Positions 7,499 through 56,564 of a stretch of 64,000 bases of DNA are shown piece by piece. Within the stretch, counting starts at the first letter, position 1. Each line of letters opens with the position of its first letter. Under the pieces are notes generated by a model. That model ran no database searches. It was given only the letters and a program-made list of their open reading frames with translations, and was not told the origin of the DNA. The stretch is from Motilibacter peucedani (GTDB taxonomy: Bacteria > Actinomycetota > Actinomycetes > Motilibacterales > Motilibacteraceae), in the NCBI RefSeq assembly GCF_003634695.1, contig NZ_RBWV01000014.1, positions 124,001 to 188,000 of the forward strand, in the 5' to 3' direction. Made by a program: the position numbers and the translations under genes.

Positions 7499-7572
7499 GA
7501 GGGGTTCCTCTCATCGGGGCGGTCGCCGGGTCGGCCAGCGCCCGGGAGCGCGCCGTGGACCGGAACCTGTGG

Positions 7573-51322: not shown

Positions 51323-52747
51323 TCACTCCGCCACTGGCACGCCGTGGTTCGCCCGCAGCAGGCCCTGGGGGTCGACCTCGCGGCGCAGCCGCTGCAGCCG
51401 GTGCCAGGAGCCGGCCGCGTAGCCGGTGGAGGTGTCCGTGGCGTGCTCGACGAAGTTGAGGTAGCACTGGCGCGACGCCCACGGCGACAGCGCCTCCACG
51501 AGCGCAGCCGCACCTGCCGCGACGGCGGCGCCCATCTCCGGGGTCGCCGCGATGCCCACGCCGAAGACGAGGAAGTCGCCCTCGAGGTGCGAGAGAGCCG
51601 CCTTGTAGGGCGCCGGCCGGCTCACGGCGCCGCCCAGCTGGCGGATCTCGGCCGCCAGCAGCGGCGAGCCCGAGCCGGGTCCCGCGACGCGCAGGAAGGT
51701 CTCGATGCCCTCAGGGGTCAGCTCGGAGAGCAGCACGGTGTTCGAGACGCCGGGGGTCGGGCCCTCCGGGTCCATGTGCAGACGGGTGAGCGTCTCGACC
51801 GGCACGTGGGCGAAGGTGTCGAGCTCCGGGTGCAGGGCGCGCAGCGGGGCCAGCAGCGCCGACACGGCCGGGGTGTCGCCCATGACGGCGCCGTCGATCA
51901 CCACGAGGTTGCGGCCGCGGAACGGCTCCGGGATGACCGGCAGCGGCGGCAGCTGCAGCAGCCGGAACGACGTGGTGACCGACTCGTCGACCTCCCTGGC
52001 CCAGGCTGCCCACACGGGCAGCACCTCGGCGGCGCGCTCCCAGTCCCACACCAGCATCCCGGCGTAGGCGGTGGTGAAGTCGAAGGCCTCGATCTCGAGC
52101 TCGGTGACGATGCCGATGTTGCCGCCGCCGCCGCGCAGGCCCCACAGCAGGTCGGGGTTCTCCTCGGGCGAGACGCGCACGACGGAGCCGTCTGCCAGGA
52201 CCAGCTCGGCGCCGGTGATCGAGTGGGCGGCGAAGCCGAGCTTGCGCGCGTACCACCCCATGCCACCACCGAGGCAGTAGCCGACCACGCCGACGTCGGG
52301 CGACGAGCCGTGCAGGACGGCGAGGCCGTGCTGCGCAGCCGCTTCGACGGCCTCGAGCCACAGGGTGCCGGCACCGACGGTCACCCGGCGGCGGGCGGCG
52401 TCGACGCGTACGCCGATCATCGCCGACGTGCGGAGCAGCACCGCGTCGCGCAGGTCGCCGAGCGGGCCGGCGTTGTGGCCGGTGCCCTGCACCGCGACGC
52501 GCAGGCCGGCGGCCGCGGCGGCACGCACGACCTCGGAGACCTCGGCGGCCGACGCGGGGTAGGCGACGGCGGCCGGCCGCTGGTCGACGGCGACGTTCCA
52601 GGGCTGGCGGGCGTCGTCGTAGCCCGGGTCGCCGGGAAGGTGCACCGCGCCGCCGCACAGCTCGCGCAGCGACGGGGCGCCGTGGCGCGACTGGGTCGGG
52701 AAGTGGGTGGTCGGGAGGACGTCGGCGGACTGGACGGGGGTGGACAT
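51323..52747 (-). CDS. BBE-type FAD-linked oxidase
   Basis: This 474-residue flavoprotein belongs to the berberine-bridge/hexose-oxidase family. It probably binds FAD covalently at two sites: His in VQGTGHNAGP near residue 90 and Cys in VVGYCLGGGMG near 155. The FAD domain (about 35-215) is followed by the substrate domain and the C-terminal BBE motif with YLNFVEHATDTSTGYAAGS. The substrate may be a sugar or secondary metabolite. The ATG follows GAGGAG. The large AfsR/LuxR regulator lies directly upstream on the same strand. Confidence 0.92.
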   Translation of the reverse strand: MSTPVQSADVLPTTHFPTQSRHGAPSLRELCGGAVHLPGDPGYDDARQPWNVAVDQRPAAVAYPASAAEVSEVVRAAAAAGLRVAVQGTGHNAGPLGDLRDAVLLRTSAMIGVRVDAARRRVTVGAGTLWLEAVEAAAQHGLAVLHGSSPDVGVVGYCLGGGMGWYARKLGFAAHSITGAELVLADGSVVRVSPEENPDLLWGLRGGGGNIGIVTELEIEAFDFTTAYAGMLVWDWERAAEVLPVWAAWAREVDESVTTSFRLLQLPPLPVIPEPFRGRNLVVIDGAVMGDTPAVSALLAPLRALHPELDTFAHVPVETLTRLHMDPEGPTPGVSNTVLLSELTPEGIETFLRVAGPGSGSPLLAAEIRQLGGAVSRPAPYKAALSHLEGDFLVFGVGIAATPEMGAAVAAGAAALVEALSPWASRQCYLNFVEHATDTSTGYAAGSWHRLQRLRREVDPQGLLRANHGVPVAE

Positions 52748-52841
52748 CTCTGGCTCCTCAATGGGTTGCGGTCAGGGCGACCTTCCACCTGAGGGCTTGA
52801 GGAACTCTTGCGTACGACTTGTGCCTGGCTGGTCGCGAGGA

Positions 52842-52857
52842 CTGCCCGATCGGGCAG
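52842..52857. promoter_or_regulatory. 16-bp perfect palindrome between the regulator and the FAD oxidase
   Basis: CTGCCCGATCGGGCAG is a perfect 16-bp palindrome that starts at the base next to the regulator's stop codon, in the 110-bp gap before the oxidase. It could end the regulator mRNA or be the binding site for its LuxR-type domain or another dimer. The rest of the gap has a GTACGC/GCGTACG-like cluster near 52810-52820 but no clear promoter. Confidence 0.5.
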
Positions 52858-55800
52858 CTAGCGGGCGAGCGCGAGCGCGAGCTGGCCGTCGTCGTCGATG
52901 CCGAGGCTCCGCCGCACCGAGTCGAGGGTGACCTCCACGGAGCGCGGGGTGAGGAACAGCATCTCGGCGATGCGCCGAGGGTCGTCGCCGCGCGCGGCCA
53001 TCGTCGCGATGCGCCGCTCGGTGGTCGTCAGGCGTACGGCTGCCTCCTGCGCCTCGCGCACCTCGGCGCCCGCGGCGCGCAGGGCGGTGGCCGCCTCGGT
53101 GCGCAGGGCGTCGGCGCCGCAGCGCTCGGCCAGGTCGAGGCAGCGGTGCAGCAGGGCCTCGGCCTCGGCCGGGTCGGGCACCACCCGGGCCAGCGCCATC
53201 GTGGCGCGGGCCAGCTCGAGCCGGGCTCGGGTGGCGGCCAGCACGTCGACGGCCTGGCGCAGCGCAGGCTCGCCCGCGGCCCCCTGCTGCTCGCCGAGCA
53301 GTCGGAGCCCCCGCCCGAGGAACCGCGGCGAGCCCCACTCGCGGACGAGCTCGAGCTCCTCCTCCAGCAGGGCGACCGCTTCGCGCTGGGAGCCGAGGGC
53401 GCCGAGCGCCGCCGCGCGCAGCGAGCGCCACGGCGCCCAGACCGGGTTGCGGATCGAGCGCCCGAGCCCCGGCTCGGAGTCGAGCAGGGCGAGCGCCTCG
53501 ACCGGCCGCCGCTCGGCGAGCAGCAGCGCGACCTCGGCCTCGGTGTTGAGCCGGGCGCCGTCGCCGATGCGCGCGCGCCAGCGCTTGGAGTCGAAGAAGG
53601 CGCGCGCCTGCTCGACCTGGCCGCGGTCGACCAGGACGCCGGTCAGGAACGCCTCGCCGTAGGACACGCCGATCGCCGGCCCGGCCCACTTCTCGCTCTG
53701 CCAGTTGGCCAGGCGCAGCGAGCGCTCGGCCTCGCGCAGGTCGCCCGCCCACCACTGGGCGTGCCCGCGCCACAGGTGCGTGGCCAGGGCGGAGAACAGC
53801 GAGCCCTGCGCGTGGGCGCGCAGCAGCACGTCGTCCCAGAACGCGTCGAGGTCCTCGTCGGCCATGTCGAGCAGGAACGCAGCGACCACCCAGAACAGCC
53901 CGGGGTCGGCGCTCAGGAGGACGCCGTCGGCAAGGCCCCAGCGCGCCAGCTCCTGGCAGCGCGGCAGGTCCCGGTTGTGGATCACCATGTCCCAGGCCAT
54001 GGACACCGCGAGCATCCGCGCACCCGGTCCAGCCCCGACCAGCTCGGGCAGCGGCCCGTCGCCCCACCCCCGCGTCGGCACGGCGTGCATGTGGGCGCTG
54101 ACCACCTCGAGGGCCAGCAGCGCCTGCCGGACGTCGACCAGGGCCTCGGGCAGCGCGGCGCTGGCCTCGCGGGCGAAGGCGGCGGCCTCGCCCGGGGCGG
54201 CGGCGAACACCAGCGTGTGGCACAGCAGCAGCGCCGCCTGCGCCTTGACCTCGACCTCGTCGGCGAGCGCGTAGGCCTCGCGCAGGTGCTCGATCGCCGC
54301 GATGCCGTCCGAGAGCGTCTCGACGCTGCCCAGCTCGAGCAGCACGCGGGCGCGCAGGGCGGGCTCGGGCGGCTCGCGCAGCGCGCGGGCGAGGTACGTG
54401 GTGCTGCTGTCGGGCGCGCCCCGGTCGCTCGCGATCGCTGCCGCCCGGCGCAGCGCCGCGACCACCTCGGGGCCGCCGCGGGCCGGCACGTGCATCAGGT
54501 GCGCGGCGACCTGCTCGGCCGTCGCGGTGCCCTCGGCGAGGATGCGGGACGCGCGCTCGTGGGCGAGCTCGCGCTCGCCCGGCGGGATGCTGCGGTAGAC
54601 CGCCTCGCGCACCAGCGGGTGCACGAAGCCGAGCGGGTGGCCGTCGTGCAGGATCTCGGCGCCCGCGAGGCTGCCGACGGCGGCCGCGGCGTCCGGGTCG
54701 CTGAGGCCGGCGAGCGCCGCGACCTCGGGCAGCGCGGCGCCGTCGCCCAGCACGGCCACGGCGCGCGCGACGGCGCCGGCCGCGTCGGGCAGGCGACGCA
54801 GGCGCATGAGCACCATGCTCGAGACCGCCCGCGACCCGATCGCCGTCACCGTGCCGGCGTGCGAGGCGTCGGGGCGCACGCCGTCGCTCTCGAGCGCGCG
54901 CAGCAGCTGCCGGAGCAGCAGCGGGTTGCCGCCGGTCGTGCGGTGGCAGGCCGCCACGAACGCAGCGTCCGGCTCGGCGCCCAGCCGACGGCGTACGAGC
55001 CCGGCCACGCCGTCGACGCTCAGCGGGCCGGGCGCGACGGTGACCGAGGATGCGTCGTGCGCGACCTCGGCCACGAGCGCCGGCTCGGCCGGCTGCTCGC
55101 CCGTGCGCAGCGTGACCGCGACCAGCAGCGGCAGGCCGTCGAGCCGGCGGGCGAGGTAGGCGAGGAAGCGCAAGGAGGAGGCGTCGCACCACTGCAGGTC
55201 GTCGACGGCCAGCAGCACGCGGCGCTCGGCGGCGAGGTTCTCGACCAGCCAGTAGAGCCCGTGGAGCACCGCGAACGAGCTGTCGCTGGAGCGCTCTGCC
55301 GACCCGGTGTCGTCGAAGACGCCGGCAGCGGCAGCGGCAGGGCCGGCGAGCAGCCGCTCGCGCCCGGCCGGGTCGAGCAGCAGCGGCTCGAACAGCTGGC
55401 GCACCGCGCCGAAGGCGAACTCCCGCTCGAGCACGCTGCCGCGCGCGCCCAGCACCAGCGCGCCGCGCTCCTGCGCCGAGCGGCGGGCCTCGGCGAGCAG
55501 ACGGCTCTTGCCGATGCCGGCCGGACCCTCGATGACGGCGACGACGCCCGCACCGTCGAGCGCGTCGTCGAGGCAGGCCGCCAGGCGCTCGAGCTCGGCG
55601 TCGCGGTCGACCATGTCGTCAGGGCCCGCCTCCTGGGCGCGCCGCTCGCGGGGCGGCGGCTGCGCAGCCCCCGGCGGCTGGAGGGGCTGGACGGGCTGCG
55701 CGGGCACCGGCTCGGGCGCCAGCGCGGGGTCCTGGGCGAGGATCTGCGCCTCGACCTCGCGCAGTGCCGGGCTCGGGTCGACGCCGAGCTCGTCGAGCAG

Positions 55801-56511
55801 CACCGAGCGCGCCGAGCGCAGCGCCGCGAGGGCGTCGGACTGCCGGTGCGAGCGGTAGAGCGCGAGCGCGAGCAGCCGCCAGCGCTCCTCGCGCAGCGGC
55901 TCCTCGGCGGTCATCGCCTCCAGCTCGGGCACCAGGACCGCCGCCTCGCCGGTCGCGAGCCGTGCCGCGAGCAGCCGCTCGAGCGCCACCGCGCGCAGCT
56001 CGTCGAGGCGCGCGGTCTCCGAGTCGGCCCAGCGCTCGCCCGCCCACTCGGTGTAGCCCGGGCCGCGCCACAGCGACAAGGCGCGCTCCAGCAGGTCGCG
56101 CGCCACCGCCGGCTCGCCCGCCGCCGTGCCGGCCGAGACCAGCCGCTCGAAGGCCCAGGCGTCGACCGCCTCCTCGGGCAGCCGGCAGGCGTAGCCGCCG
56201 CGCTCGCGCACGATGACCGAGGTCCGCTCGCGCGCGTCGCGCCCGGGCTCGAGGGCGCGGCGCAGGTGCGAGACGTACGACTGCAGCGCCCCCGCCGCTC
56301 CCGCGGGCGCCGACTCCCCCCACAGCAGGTCGATGACGCGCTCCGGCGGCAGCGCGGCACCCCGGGCGAGGAGCAGCAGCGCCAGCACGCCGCGCTGACG
56401 ACGGCCACCCAGCTCGAGCTCCACGCCGTCGCGGCGGGCCGACAGGCCGCCGAGCACGGAGACCGCGAGCCCGGAGCCGGGTCCGGGCACCGCTGCAGCA
56501 GCGACAGGCAC
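52858..56511 (-). CDS. Large AfsR/LuxR-type transcriptional regulator with ATPase domain
   Basis: This roughly 1,217-residue regulator has an N-terminal winged helix and BTAD bacterial transcriptional activation domain (about 10-240), a signalling ATPase with Walker A EGPAGIGKSRLL (about 340) and Walker B VLLAVDDLQWCD (about 430), a TPR-like helical region (about 680-1130) and a C-terminal LuxR helix-turn-helix (about 1150-1217). BTAD and LuxR together are unusual. The start is uncertain: the GTG at 56511 has TACGGT six bases upstream (leaderless pattern), and another GTG at 56529 is possible. It probably controls the downstream FAD oxidase. Confidence 0.85.
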   Translation of the reverse strand: MPVAAAAVPGPGSGLAVSVLGGLSARRDGVELELGGRRQRGVLALLLLARGAALPPERVIDLLWGESAPAGAAGALQSYVSHLRRALEPGRDARERTSVIVRERGGYACRLPEEAVDAWAFERLVSAGTAAGEPAVARDLLERALSLWRGPGYTEWAGERWADSETARLDELRAVALERLLAARLATGEAAVLVPELEAMTAEEPLREERWRLLALALYRSHRQSDALAALRSARSVLLDELGVDPSPALREVEAQILAQDPALAPEPVPAQPVQPLQPPGAAQPPPRERRAQEAGPDDMVDRDAELERLAACLDDALDGAGVVAVIEGPAGIGKSRLLAEARRSAQERGALVLGARGSVLEREFAFGAVRQLFEPLLLDPAGRERLLAGPAAAAAGVFDDTGSAERSSDSSFAVLHGLYWLVENLAAERRVLLAVDDLQWCDASSLRFLAYLARRLDGLPLLVAVTLRTGEQPAEPALVAEVAHDASSVTVAPGPLSVDGVAGLVRRRLGAEPDAAFVAACHRTTGGNPLLLRQLLRALESDGVRPDASHAGTVTAIGSRAVSSMVLMRLRRLPDAAGAVARAVAVLGDGAALPEVAALAGLSDPDAAAAVGSLAGAEILHDGHPLGFVHPLVREAVYRSIPPGERELAHERASRILAEGTATAEQVAAHLMHVPARGGPEVVAALRRAAAIASDRGAPDSSTTYLARALREPPEPALRARVLLELGSVETLSDGIAAIEHLREAYALADEVEVKAQAALLLCHTLVFAAAPGEAAAFAREASAALPEALVDVRQALLALEVVSAHMHAVPTRGWGDGPLPELVGAGPGARMLAVSMAWDMVIHNRDLPRCQELARWGLADGVLLSADPGLFWVVAAFLLDMADEDLDAFWDDVLLRAHAQGSLFSALATHLWRGHAQWWAGDLREAERSLRLANWQSEKWAGPAIGVSYGEAFLTGVLVDRGQVEQARAFFDSKRWRARIGDGARLNTEAEVALLLAERRPVEALALLDSEPGLGRSIRNPVWAPWRSLRAAALGALGSQREAVALLEEELELVREWGSPRFLGRGLRLLGEQQGAAGEPALRQAVDVLAATRARLELARATMALARVVPDPAEAEALLHRCLDLAERCGADALRTEAATALRAAGAEVREAQEAAVRLTTTERRIATMAARGDDPRRIAEMLFLTPRSVEVTLDSVRRSLGIDDDGQLALALAR

Positions 56512-56564
56512 GAGCAGACCGTAGGACACGCGGCTCGCCCGGCGGGGCAGAACCGCCGCACGCG

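Follow-up and report, generated by a model that had tools for sequence, protein, structure and literature searches.

A giant SARP-STAND regulator, its neighbouring McrA-like oxidase and a predicted CAAG-repeat operator in Motilibacter peucedani and other Actinomycetes

When a giant, multi-domain regulator is encoded directly before a single enzyme gene, is that enzyme its target, and is it the only one? The question is raised by a pair of genes within 64,000 nucleotides of Motilibacter peucedani DNA (NCBI RefSeq assembly GCF_003634695.1, contig NZ_RBWV01000014.1, positions 124,001 to 188,000; this whole stretch is hereafter the window). One gene encodes a regulator with a SARP domain, a STAND-type ATPase and a weak LuxR-like C terminus, and the other encodes a flavin adenine dinucleotide (FAD) oxidase related to the mitomycin radical oxidase McrA. 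The comparative analyses described here, for which all of the evidence comes from draft-genome sequence, make it likely that the regulator activates the oxidase, together with a small scattered regulon of detoxification type, in response to a signal.

The main sample comprised 393 genomes of the class, 124 of which have a relative of the oxidase at E≤1e-70. Around the best listed oxidase matches (all except the last four), 140 loci were fetched and their genes were called with a simple codon-usage caller; BTAD domains were sought with a profile derived from the pairs of the first set, and pairing counts omit hits below 180 bits or shorter than 150 residues. Among the matches listed, a giant BTAD regulator lies no more than two genes from 59 of 147 oxidases, the two genes being divergent in 24 cases, regulator first in 15, oxidase first in 8, convergent in one and separated by one gene in 11. 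BTAD genes occupy 39 of 144 positions at offset −1 and 13 of 146 at offset +1; for offsets 4 to 6, taken in both directions, the figure is 3 of 641. On a tree of 151 oxidase rows made by a quick method, pairing requires 14 changes, against a mean of 47.3 in shuffles, and it is spread over at least three well separated oxidase clades. In the clade of the window oxidase, 17 of 22 rows are paired, and a second regulator-oxidase pair, from another clade, is present on contig 11 of the same genome. Similarly, in a replicate drawn from named genomes (80 loci; 74 genes after removal of seven identical to the first set), 12 of 74 oxidases are paired and BTAD genes are found at offset −1 in 10 of 72 cases; these pairs include Geodermatophilus sabuli, Blastococcus, Nocardioides and Rhodococcus hoagii.

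Two further features of these neighbourhoods were observed. In one family (L169, L170, and L172), whole pairs are duplicated in tandem, giving two divergent pairs in a row. Additionally, unpaired oxidases often have a divergent LuxR-family regulator, most of about 375 residues, in the place of the BTAD regulator (loci L089, L096, L106, L137, L138, L139, L141, L148, L150, and L151). GerE matches 14 of the 85 upstream neighbours of unpaired oxidases that were scanned (one of 86 was omitted by a size or forced-call filter), and among the 25 families shown for these neighbours no other regulator family is prominent.

The 110 bp between the regulator and the oxidase hold a predicted operator of three CAAG repeats and a −10-like element (Table 1), neither of which figured in the original prediction made for this DNA; the repeats were spotted by eye in intergenic gaps. 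Genes were scored by the number of matches to the 12 operator letters within 350 bp upstream. Scores of at least 10 were obtained for 44 of 61 paired oxidases (the window pair and the second own-genome pair included), compared with 7 of 88 unpaired oxidases and 27 of 1,403 other genes (Fisher, 1.4e-16 and 3e-51, respectively), and in the replicate for 7/12, 2/62, and 5/763. When the 28 best sites were aligned, an A and a T proved to be fixed downstream, which corresponds to a NANNNT −10 element at a constant distance from the last CAAG; this element had played no part in site selection. It is in register at 10 of 10 perfect paired sites, at 16 of 18 sites scoring at least 11, at all four perfect unpaired sites, and at 8 of 8 replicate sites scoring at least 10, whereas shifted offsets gave counts of only 0 to 4. 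In the operator of PimR, 4-bp spacers separate three CGGCAAG heptamers (PMC5930380), and SARP promoters have 11-bp direct repeats close to the −10 element (PMC10936776); here and below, statements on published work are limited to excerpts of the papers named. The CAAG spacing in the window is the same as in both, and the predicted oxidase promoter would likewise have direct repeats 11 bp apart close to its −10 element, as in the SARP family.

The sites of one family (G344, G082, G067, G168, and G328) have CAAG triplets with CAAGGATCC or CAAGAATCC units, which are probably another SARP specificity. At L218, L219, and L306, the ATG of some target genes lies just a few bases past the −10 element, which suggests leaderless transcripts.

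In the 4.19-Mb genome of M. peucedani there are four perfect CAAG triplets, and they precede the window oxidase, the second oxidase, a RidA/L-PSP family gene, and a secreted-protein gene. The same partners recur elsewhere. For instance, in the genus mate G001 a perfect site is followed by a relative of the secreted protein (55% identity) and then immediately by the oxidase. Other relatives of the secreted protein lie right after the oxidase in Humibacillus (L241), Agromyces (L238), and Microbacterium (L243), and in Blastococcus endophyticus (L269) the gene immediately preceding the oxidase encodes a RidA relative (70% identity). The RidA and secreted-protein genes bear an operator site in G001 also. 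The five genomes of the order together contain 16 perfect triplets, compared with 5 for the reversed control, all of the latter in G002. Seven of the 16 precede oxidases (one via a secreted-protein gene), two precede RidA genes, two precede further secreted-protein genes, two precede a secreted protein common to G002 and G003, and three are associated with other or no genes; G004 has no perfect triplet and no close regulator.

Across the 393 genomes, a hand count of the full promoter pattern gave 118 sites, spread over 63 genomes, and the reversed pattern gave 5; of the 118 sites, 16 precede oxidases among the matches listed (also a hand count). In 30 promoter-site loci, the site leads to an oxidase in 8, a hemerythrin-like gene in 4, a gene of the secreted family in 3, an MMPL exporter in 3 (with an unsure gene call at L315), RidA in one, and other or no genes in 11. 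High operator scores were also found at MMPL/MFS exporters close to the pair (L085, L086, L087, L090, L210, and own-genome L023). A search of 148 genomes for the regulator gave a match at E≤1e-60 in 28, and the promoter site is present in 17 of these 28 but in 8 of the remaining 120 (Fisher, 1.4e-9), in a hand tally that takes the 148 to be G000-G147 and has genome size as a confounder. The claim of a minimal sensor-enzyme unit thus survives in part: a regulator-enzyme unit with a conserved promoter recurs in both samples, but it is not minimal, because the same operator precedes other genes. As a separate observation, hemerythrin-like genes with the same promoter or its CAAG triplet were seen in several genomes, at L333, L335, L339, and L342, and at L224:2873-3517.

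The regulator begins with an OmpR-type winged helix followed by BTAD, as do SARPs (Trans_reg_C, 27.4 bits against a Pfam cut-off of 26.2; BTAD, 126.3 against 22.1), and continues with an AAA_16 ATPase (70.5 against 32.6) whose Walker A (GPAGIGKS) and Walker B (LAVDD) motifs are mostly retained in an alignment of relatives. Its best match in the PDB is the solved SARP domain of AfsR (1.6e-39), and its start codon is uncertain (GTG at 56529 or 56490). The domain order originally proposed is borne out for these three domains, whereas the LuxR end is visible below the cut-off (GerE, 21.7 bits against 23.5). Because GerE is detected in 13 of 16 close relatives (E≤0.01), the C-terminal helix-turn-helix is probably real but degenerate; in the regulator alignment, L088 and L079 lack it. 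The LuxR end is characteristic of a clade: GerE matches just 1 of 22 more distant regulators, almost all oxidase-paired, and therefore pairing does not depend on a second DNA-binding end.

Several known regulators resemble this protein. SARP-LALs (PimR, FilR, and SanG) share the N-terminal SARP domain with a large ATPase half, as well as operators of CAAG-ending heptamers with 4-bp spacers, and in the excerpts they have no C-terminal LuxR helix-turn-helix (PMC10972967, PMC5930380). At 1223 residues, the window regulator reaches their size (a SARP domain plus a large ATPase half, about 1,000 residues), but it was not filed among them because of its GerE match, which its close relatives share. 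Moreover, SARP-LALs activate antibiotic clusters whereas the predicted target here is a lone oxidase, and PimR binds upstream of −35 whereas in the window the last CAAG and the −10 element are 10 bp apart, an arrangement shared with classical SARP promoters. The defining features of LALs are a Walker A close to the N terminus and an unambiguous LuxR helix-turn-helix at the C terminus; in the window regulator, the SARP domain precedes the ATPase and the helix-turn-helix is sub-cut-off. AfsR shares the SARP-ATPase-TPR order and the 11-bp direct repeats close to −10, and no LuxR end is reported for it in the excerpt (PMC10936776). In contrast to AfsR, the window regulator scores 157 bits against an AfsR equivalog cut-off of 1430, and its target is different.

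The best solved relatives of the oxidase are McrA, which it matches over nearly its full length (6.4e-77) and with the same His in the flavin site, and then EncM (about 1e-51 to EncM chains). It also matches the model of the BagK/FevA1 FAD oxygenases at 1.4e-89, with 300.6 bits against a curated cut-off of 800. The nearest sampled relatives of McrA differ in not being paired with BTAD regulators, and EncM and BagK/FevA differ in that the window pair has no adjacent biosynthetic cluster. The oxidase had been described as bicovalent, a proposal that was rejected. Although His91 is invariant (151 of 151 aligned rows), the column which we take to be the second flavin attachment site, occupied by Cys in bicovalent relatives and placed from berberine bridge enzyme (BBE) motifs, has Cys in 0 of 151 rows and mostly Ser, Ala or Thr, and Cys158 is private to the window oxidase (1 of 151 rows); on that placement the protein falls outside the bicovalent BBE-like class, in which both His and Cys link the flavin. 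A VAO-type relative with Ser at the second site is monocovalent (PMC6017366), and the flavin of the window oxidase is likewise predicted to be monocovalent, via His91.

Taken together, these features are consistent with a regulator that would act as a ligand- or ATP-gated activator of the SARP/STAND kind, in which the ATPase and helical part may sense an inducer and gate activation; such gating is reported for AfsR (PMC10936776). Several SARP domains could then align on the CAAG repeats at 52796-52832, on one face of the DNA and one helical turn apart, and, standing beside a poor −10 element, could recruit RNA polymerase to the oxidase promoter. As a flavoprotein resembling mitomycin radical oxidase and EncM, the oxidase probably uses oxygen to oxidise a small molecule that is toxic or redox-active and may be an amine. 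In this genome the second oxidase, the RidA-like imine-handling protein, and the secreted protein are probably turned on through the same operator, so that the pair would be the visible part of a scattered regulon. Some members of the oxidase family convert amines into imines (PMC11375781), which would fit the RidA partner. McrA re-oxidises reduced mitomycin and so protects the producer as a resistance enzyme (PMC9570651), and it is termed inducible in the title of a work cited by PMC6804068. For these reasons an inducible detoxification role is favoured, with lower confidence than the regulation itself.

Several observations weigh against this combined reading. Among the listed oxidases, 88 of 147 have no adjacent BTAD regulator; an oxidase found mostly without the regulator, which the original prediction had named as evidence against itself, is therefore what the family as a whole displays, whereas the clade of the window oxidase is mostly paired. 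As for the promoter, 17 of the 61 paired oxidases score below 10 of 12 for the operator, and just 22 of 38 paired sites scoring at least 10 have the −10 element in register. Triplets with at most one mismatch number 6 in the M. peucedani genome, against 11 for the reversed control; therefore, only perfect sites were used in this genome, and one-mismatch triplets were rejected as regulon members. The detoxification role rests on homology and partner genes, operator-bearing exporters lie near only some pairs, and neither an exporter nor a biosynthetic cluster lies beside the window pair. Finally, the genome holds other BTAD-ATPase proteins, including a 63%-identical paralogue on contig 13 with no oxidase beside it, so that one of these may be the acting regulator. 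The paralogue at L024:7177-10800 adjoins a Gfo/Idh-like gene (named by eye) and has no operator site nearby.

The existence of such paralogues bears on an alternative in which a genuine operator serves mainly a paralogous regulator, such as the contig-13 copy, while the window regulator neighbours the oxidase by shared ancestry and has other targets. The genus mate G001 retains operator-bearing RidA and secreted-protein/oxidase genes, and its only close regulator found is an unpaired copy on C2 that groups with the contig-13 copy; operator sites can therefore be served in trans. Similarly, in the regulator tree the window protein groups with unpaired copies of its order (83/100 support), and trans action by paralogues is thus possible. 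However, the retention of pairing across most of the oxidase clade, and in several orientations, is what would be expected if the neighbour is the controller, and mainly paralogous control is considered quite improbable. A different objection concerns function, namely that the oxidase is biosynthetic or catabolic, with the regulator as its classical SARP pathway activator and detoxification a misreading. EncM, BagK/FevA, and other BBE-like relatives are biosynthetic (PMC11375781) and known SARPs activate biosynthesis (PMC10972967), but the annotated neighbours of the window pair include no biosynthetic genes, the neighbours of the pair vary between loci, exporters bear the operator near some pairs, and McrA, the closest solved relative, serves resistance; on balance this is unlikely, if a serious competitor. 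That the two genes are neighbours by chance and the repeats compositional noise has a negligible probability: BTAD regulators are common in these genomes, but the offset control (BTAD genes at 52 of 290 positions for ±1 and at 3 of 641 for offsets 4 to 6), the register of the −10 element, and the rarity of the reversed promoter pattern contradict it.

A last alternative concerns the 16-bp palindrome between the genes, to which the original prediction had drawn attention and which is indeed present and perfect. With a LuxR-like helix-turn-helix in the regulator, the palindrome could be the binding site of that domain, as a second DNA contact, and the genome contains no other perfect copy and one one-mismatch copy. 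It is, however, not remarkable, as perfect palindromes of at least 16 bp are near chance level in the window (13 against 6.3 expected, range 3 to 10, in 20 order-1 simulations), nor is it conserved: in the two closest tandem pairs, used for comparison of the gap, the orthologous gap has no palindrome of at least 10 bp (L077) or only a different one (L082). The palindrome was therefore rejected as an operator. Given also the scarcity of GerE among the more distant, mostly paired regulators, a second contact at this site is very improbable. Scans with sigma-70 and terminator consensus sequences found nothing, and an Rfam scan had no match at the pair.

The regulator and FAD oxidase genes lie on the same (minus) strand and, as originally described, the oxidase is the sole downstream gene on that strand. 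Because the oxidase is followed by a convergent gene of the inositol monophosphatase family, and a signal peptidase, a ROK-family, and an amylase gene lie upstream, the pair stands alone. Elsewhere in the window, Rfam places an L31-Actinobacteria ribosomal protein leader at 7521-7569 on the minus strand.

Table 1. Features of the regulator-oxidase locus, in window coordinates
Feature	Position	Strand	Remarks
FAD oxidase coding sequence	51323..52747	minus	474 aa, FAD_binding_4; McrA/EncM-type BBE-like family
GAGGAG, likely ribosome-binding site of oxidase	52754..52759	minus	from sequence
Predicted −10 element GAAGGT	52780..52785	minus	10 bp past last CAAG; family pattern NANNNT
Predicted SARP operator CAAG-N7-CAAG-N7-CAAG	52796..52821	minus	11-bp period, reads towards oxidase
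Degenerate fourth repeat CCAG-N7	52822..52832	minus	in register
Perfect 16-bp palindrome	52842..52857	unstranded	abuts regulator stop codon; without T run; possible weak RNA hairpin
Giant regulator coding sequence	52858..56529	minus	1223 aa; SARP, STAND ATPase, helical/TPR-like region, C-terminal LuxR-like helix-turn-helix
C-terminal LuxR/GerE-like helix-turn-helix	52876..53031	minus	residues 1167-1218, under Pfam cut-off
AAA_16 / STAND-type ATPase	55120..55605	minus	residues 309-470
SARP domain	55738..56403	minus	Trans_reg_C winged helix residues 43-111, BTAD residues 122-264

SARP operators and McrA-like enzymes are already known. The open-access literature searched yielded no giant SARP-STAND regulator that combines a LuxR-like end with a conserved promoter and a scattered, oxidase-centred regulon; it presents SARPs as activators of antibiotic clusters and describes those of medium and large size as not well investigated (PMC10972967, excerpt). 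The present finding suggests an inducible response that is centred on an oxidase and lies outside biosynthetic clusters. A broader and decidedly more tentative proposal is that giant SARP-STAND regulators across Actinomycetes may be the sensors of a widespread response outside antibiotic clusters, and may drive, through one promoter type (three CAAG repeats and a fixed −10 element), a scattered toolkit of McrA-like oxidase, RidA-like protein, secreted protein, MMPL/MFS exporter, and hemerythrin-like protein that would act against toxic amines or redox-active natural products. For giant STAND-type SARPs, a defined operator with a fixed −10 element would make targets readable from genomes, and the operator also gives a direct test of what their STAND sensors detect.

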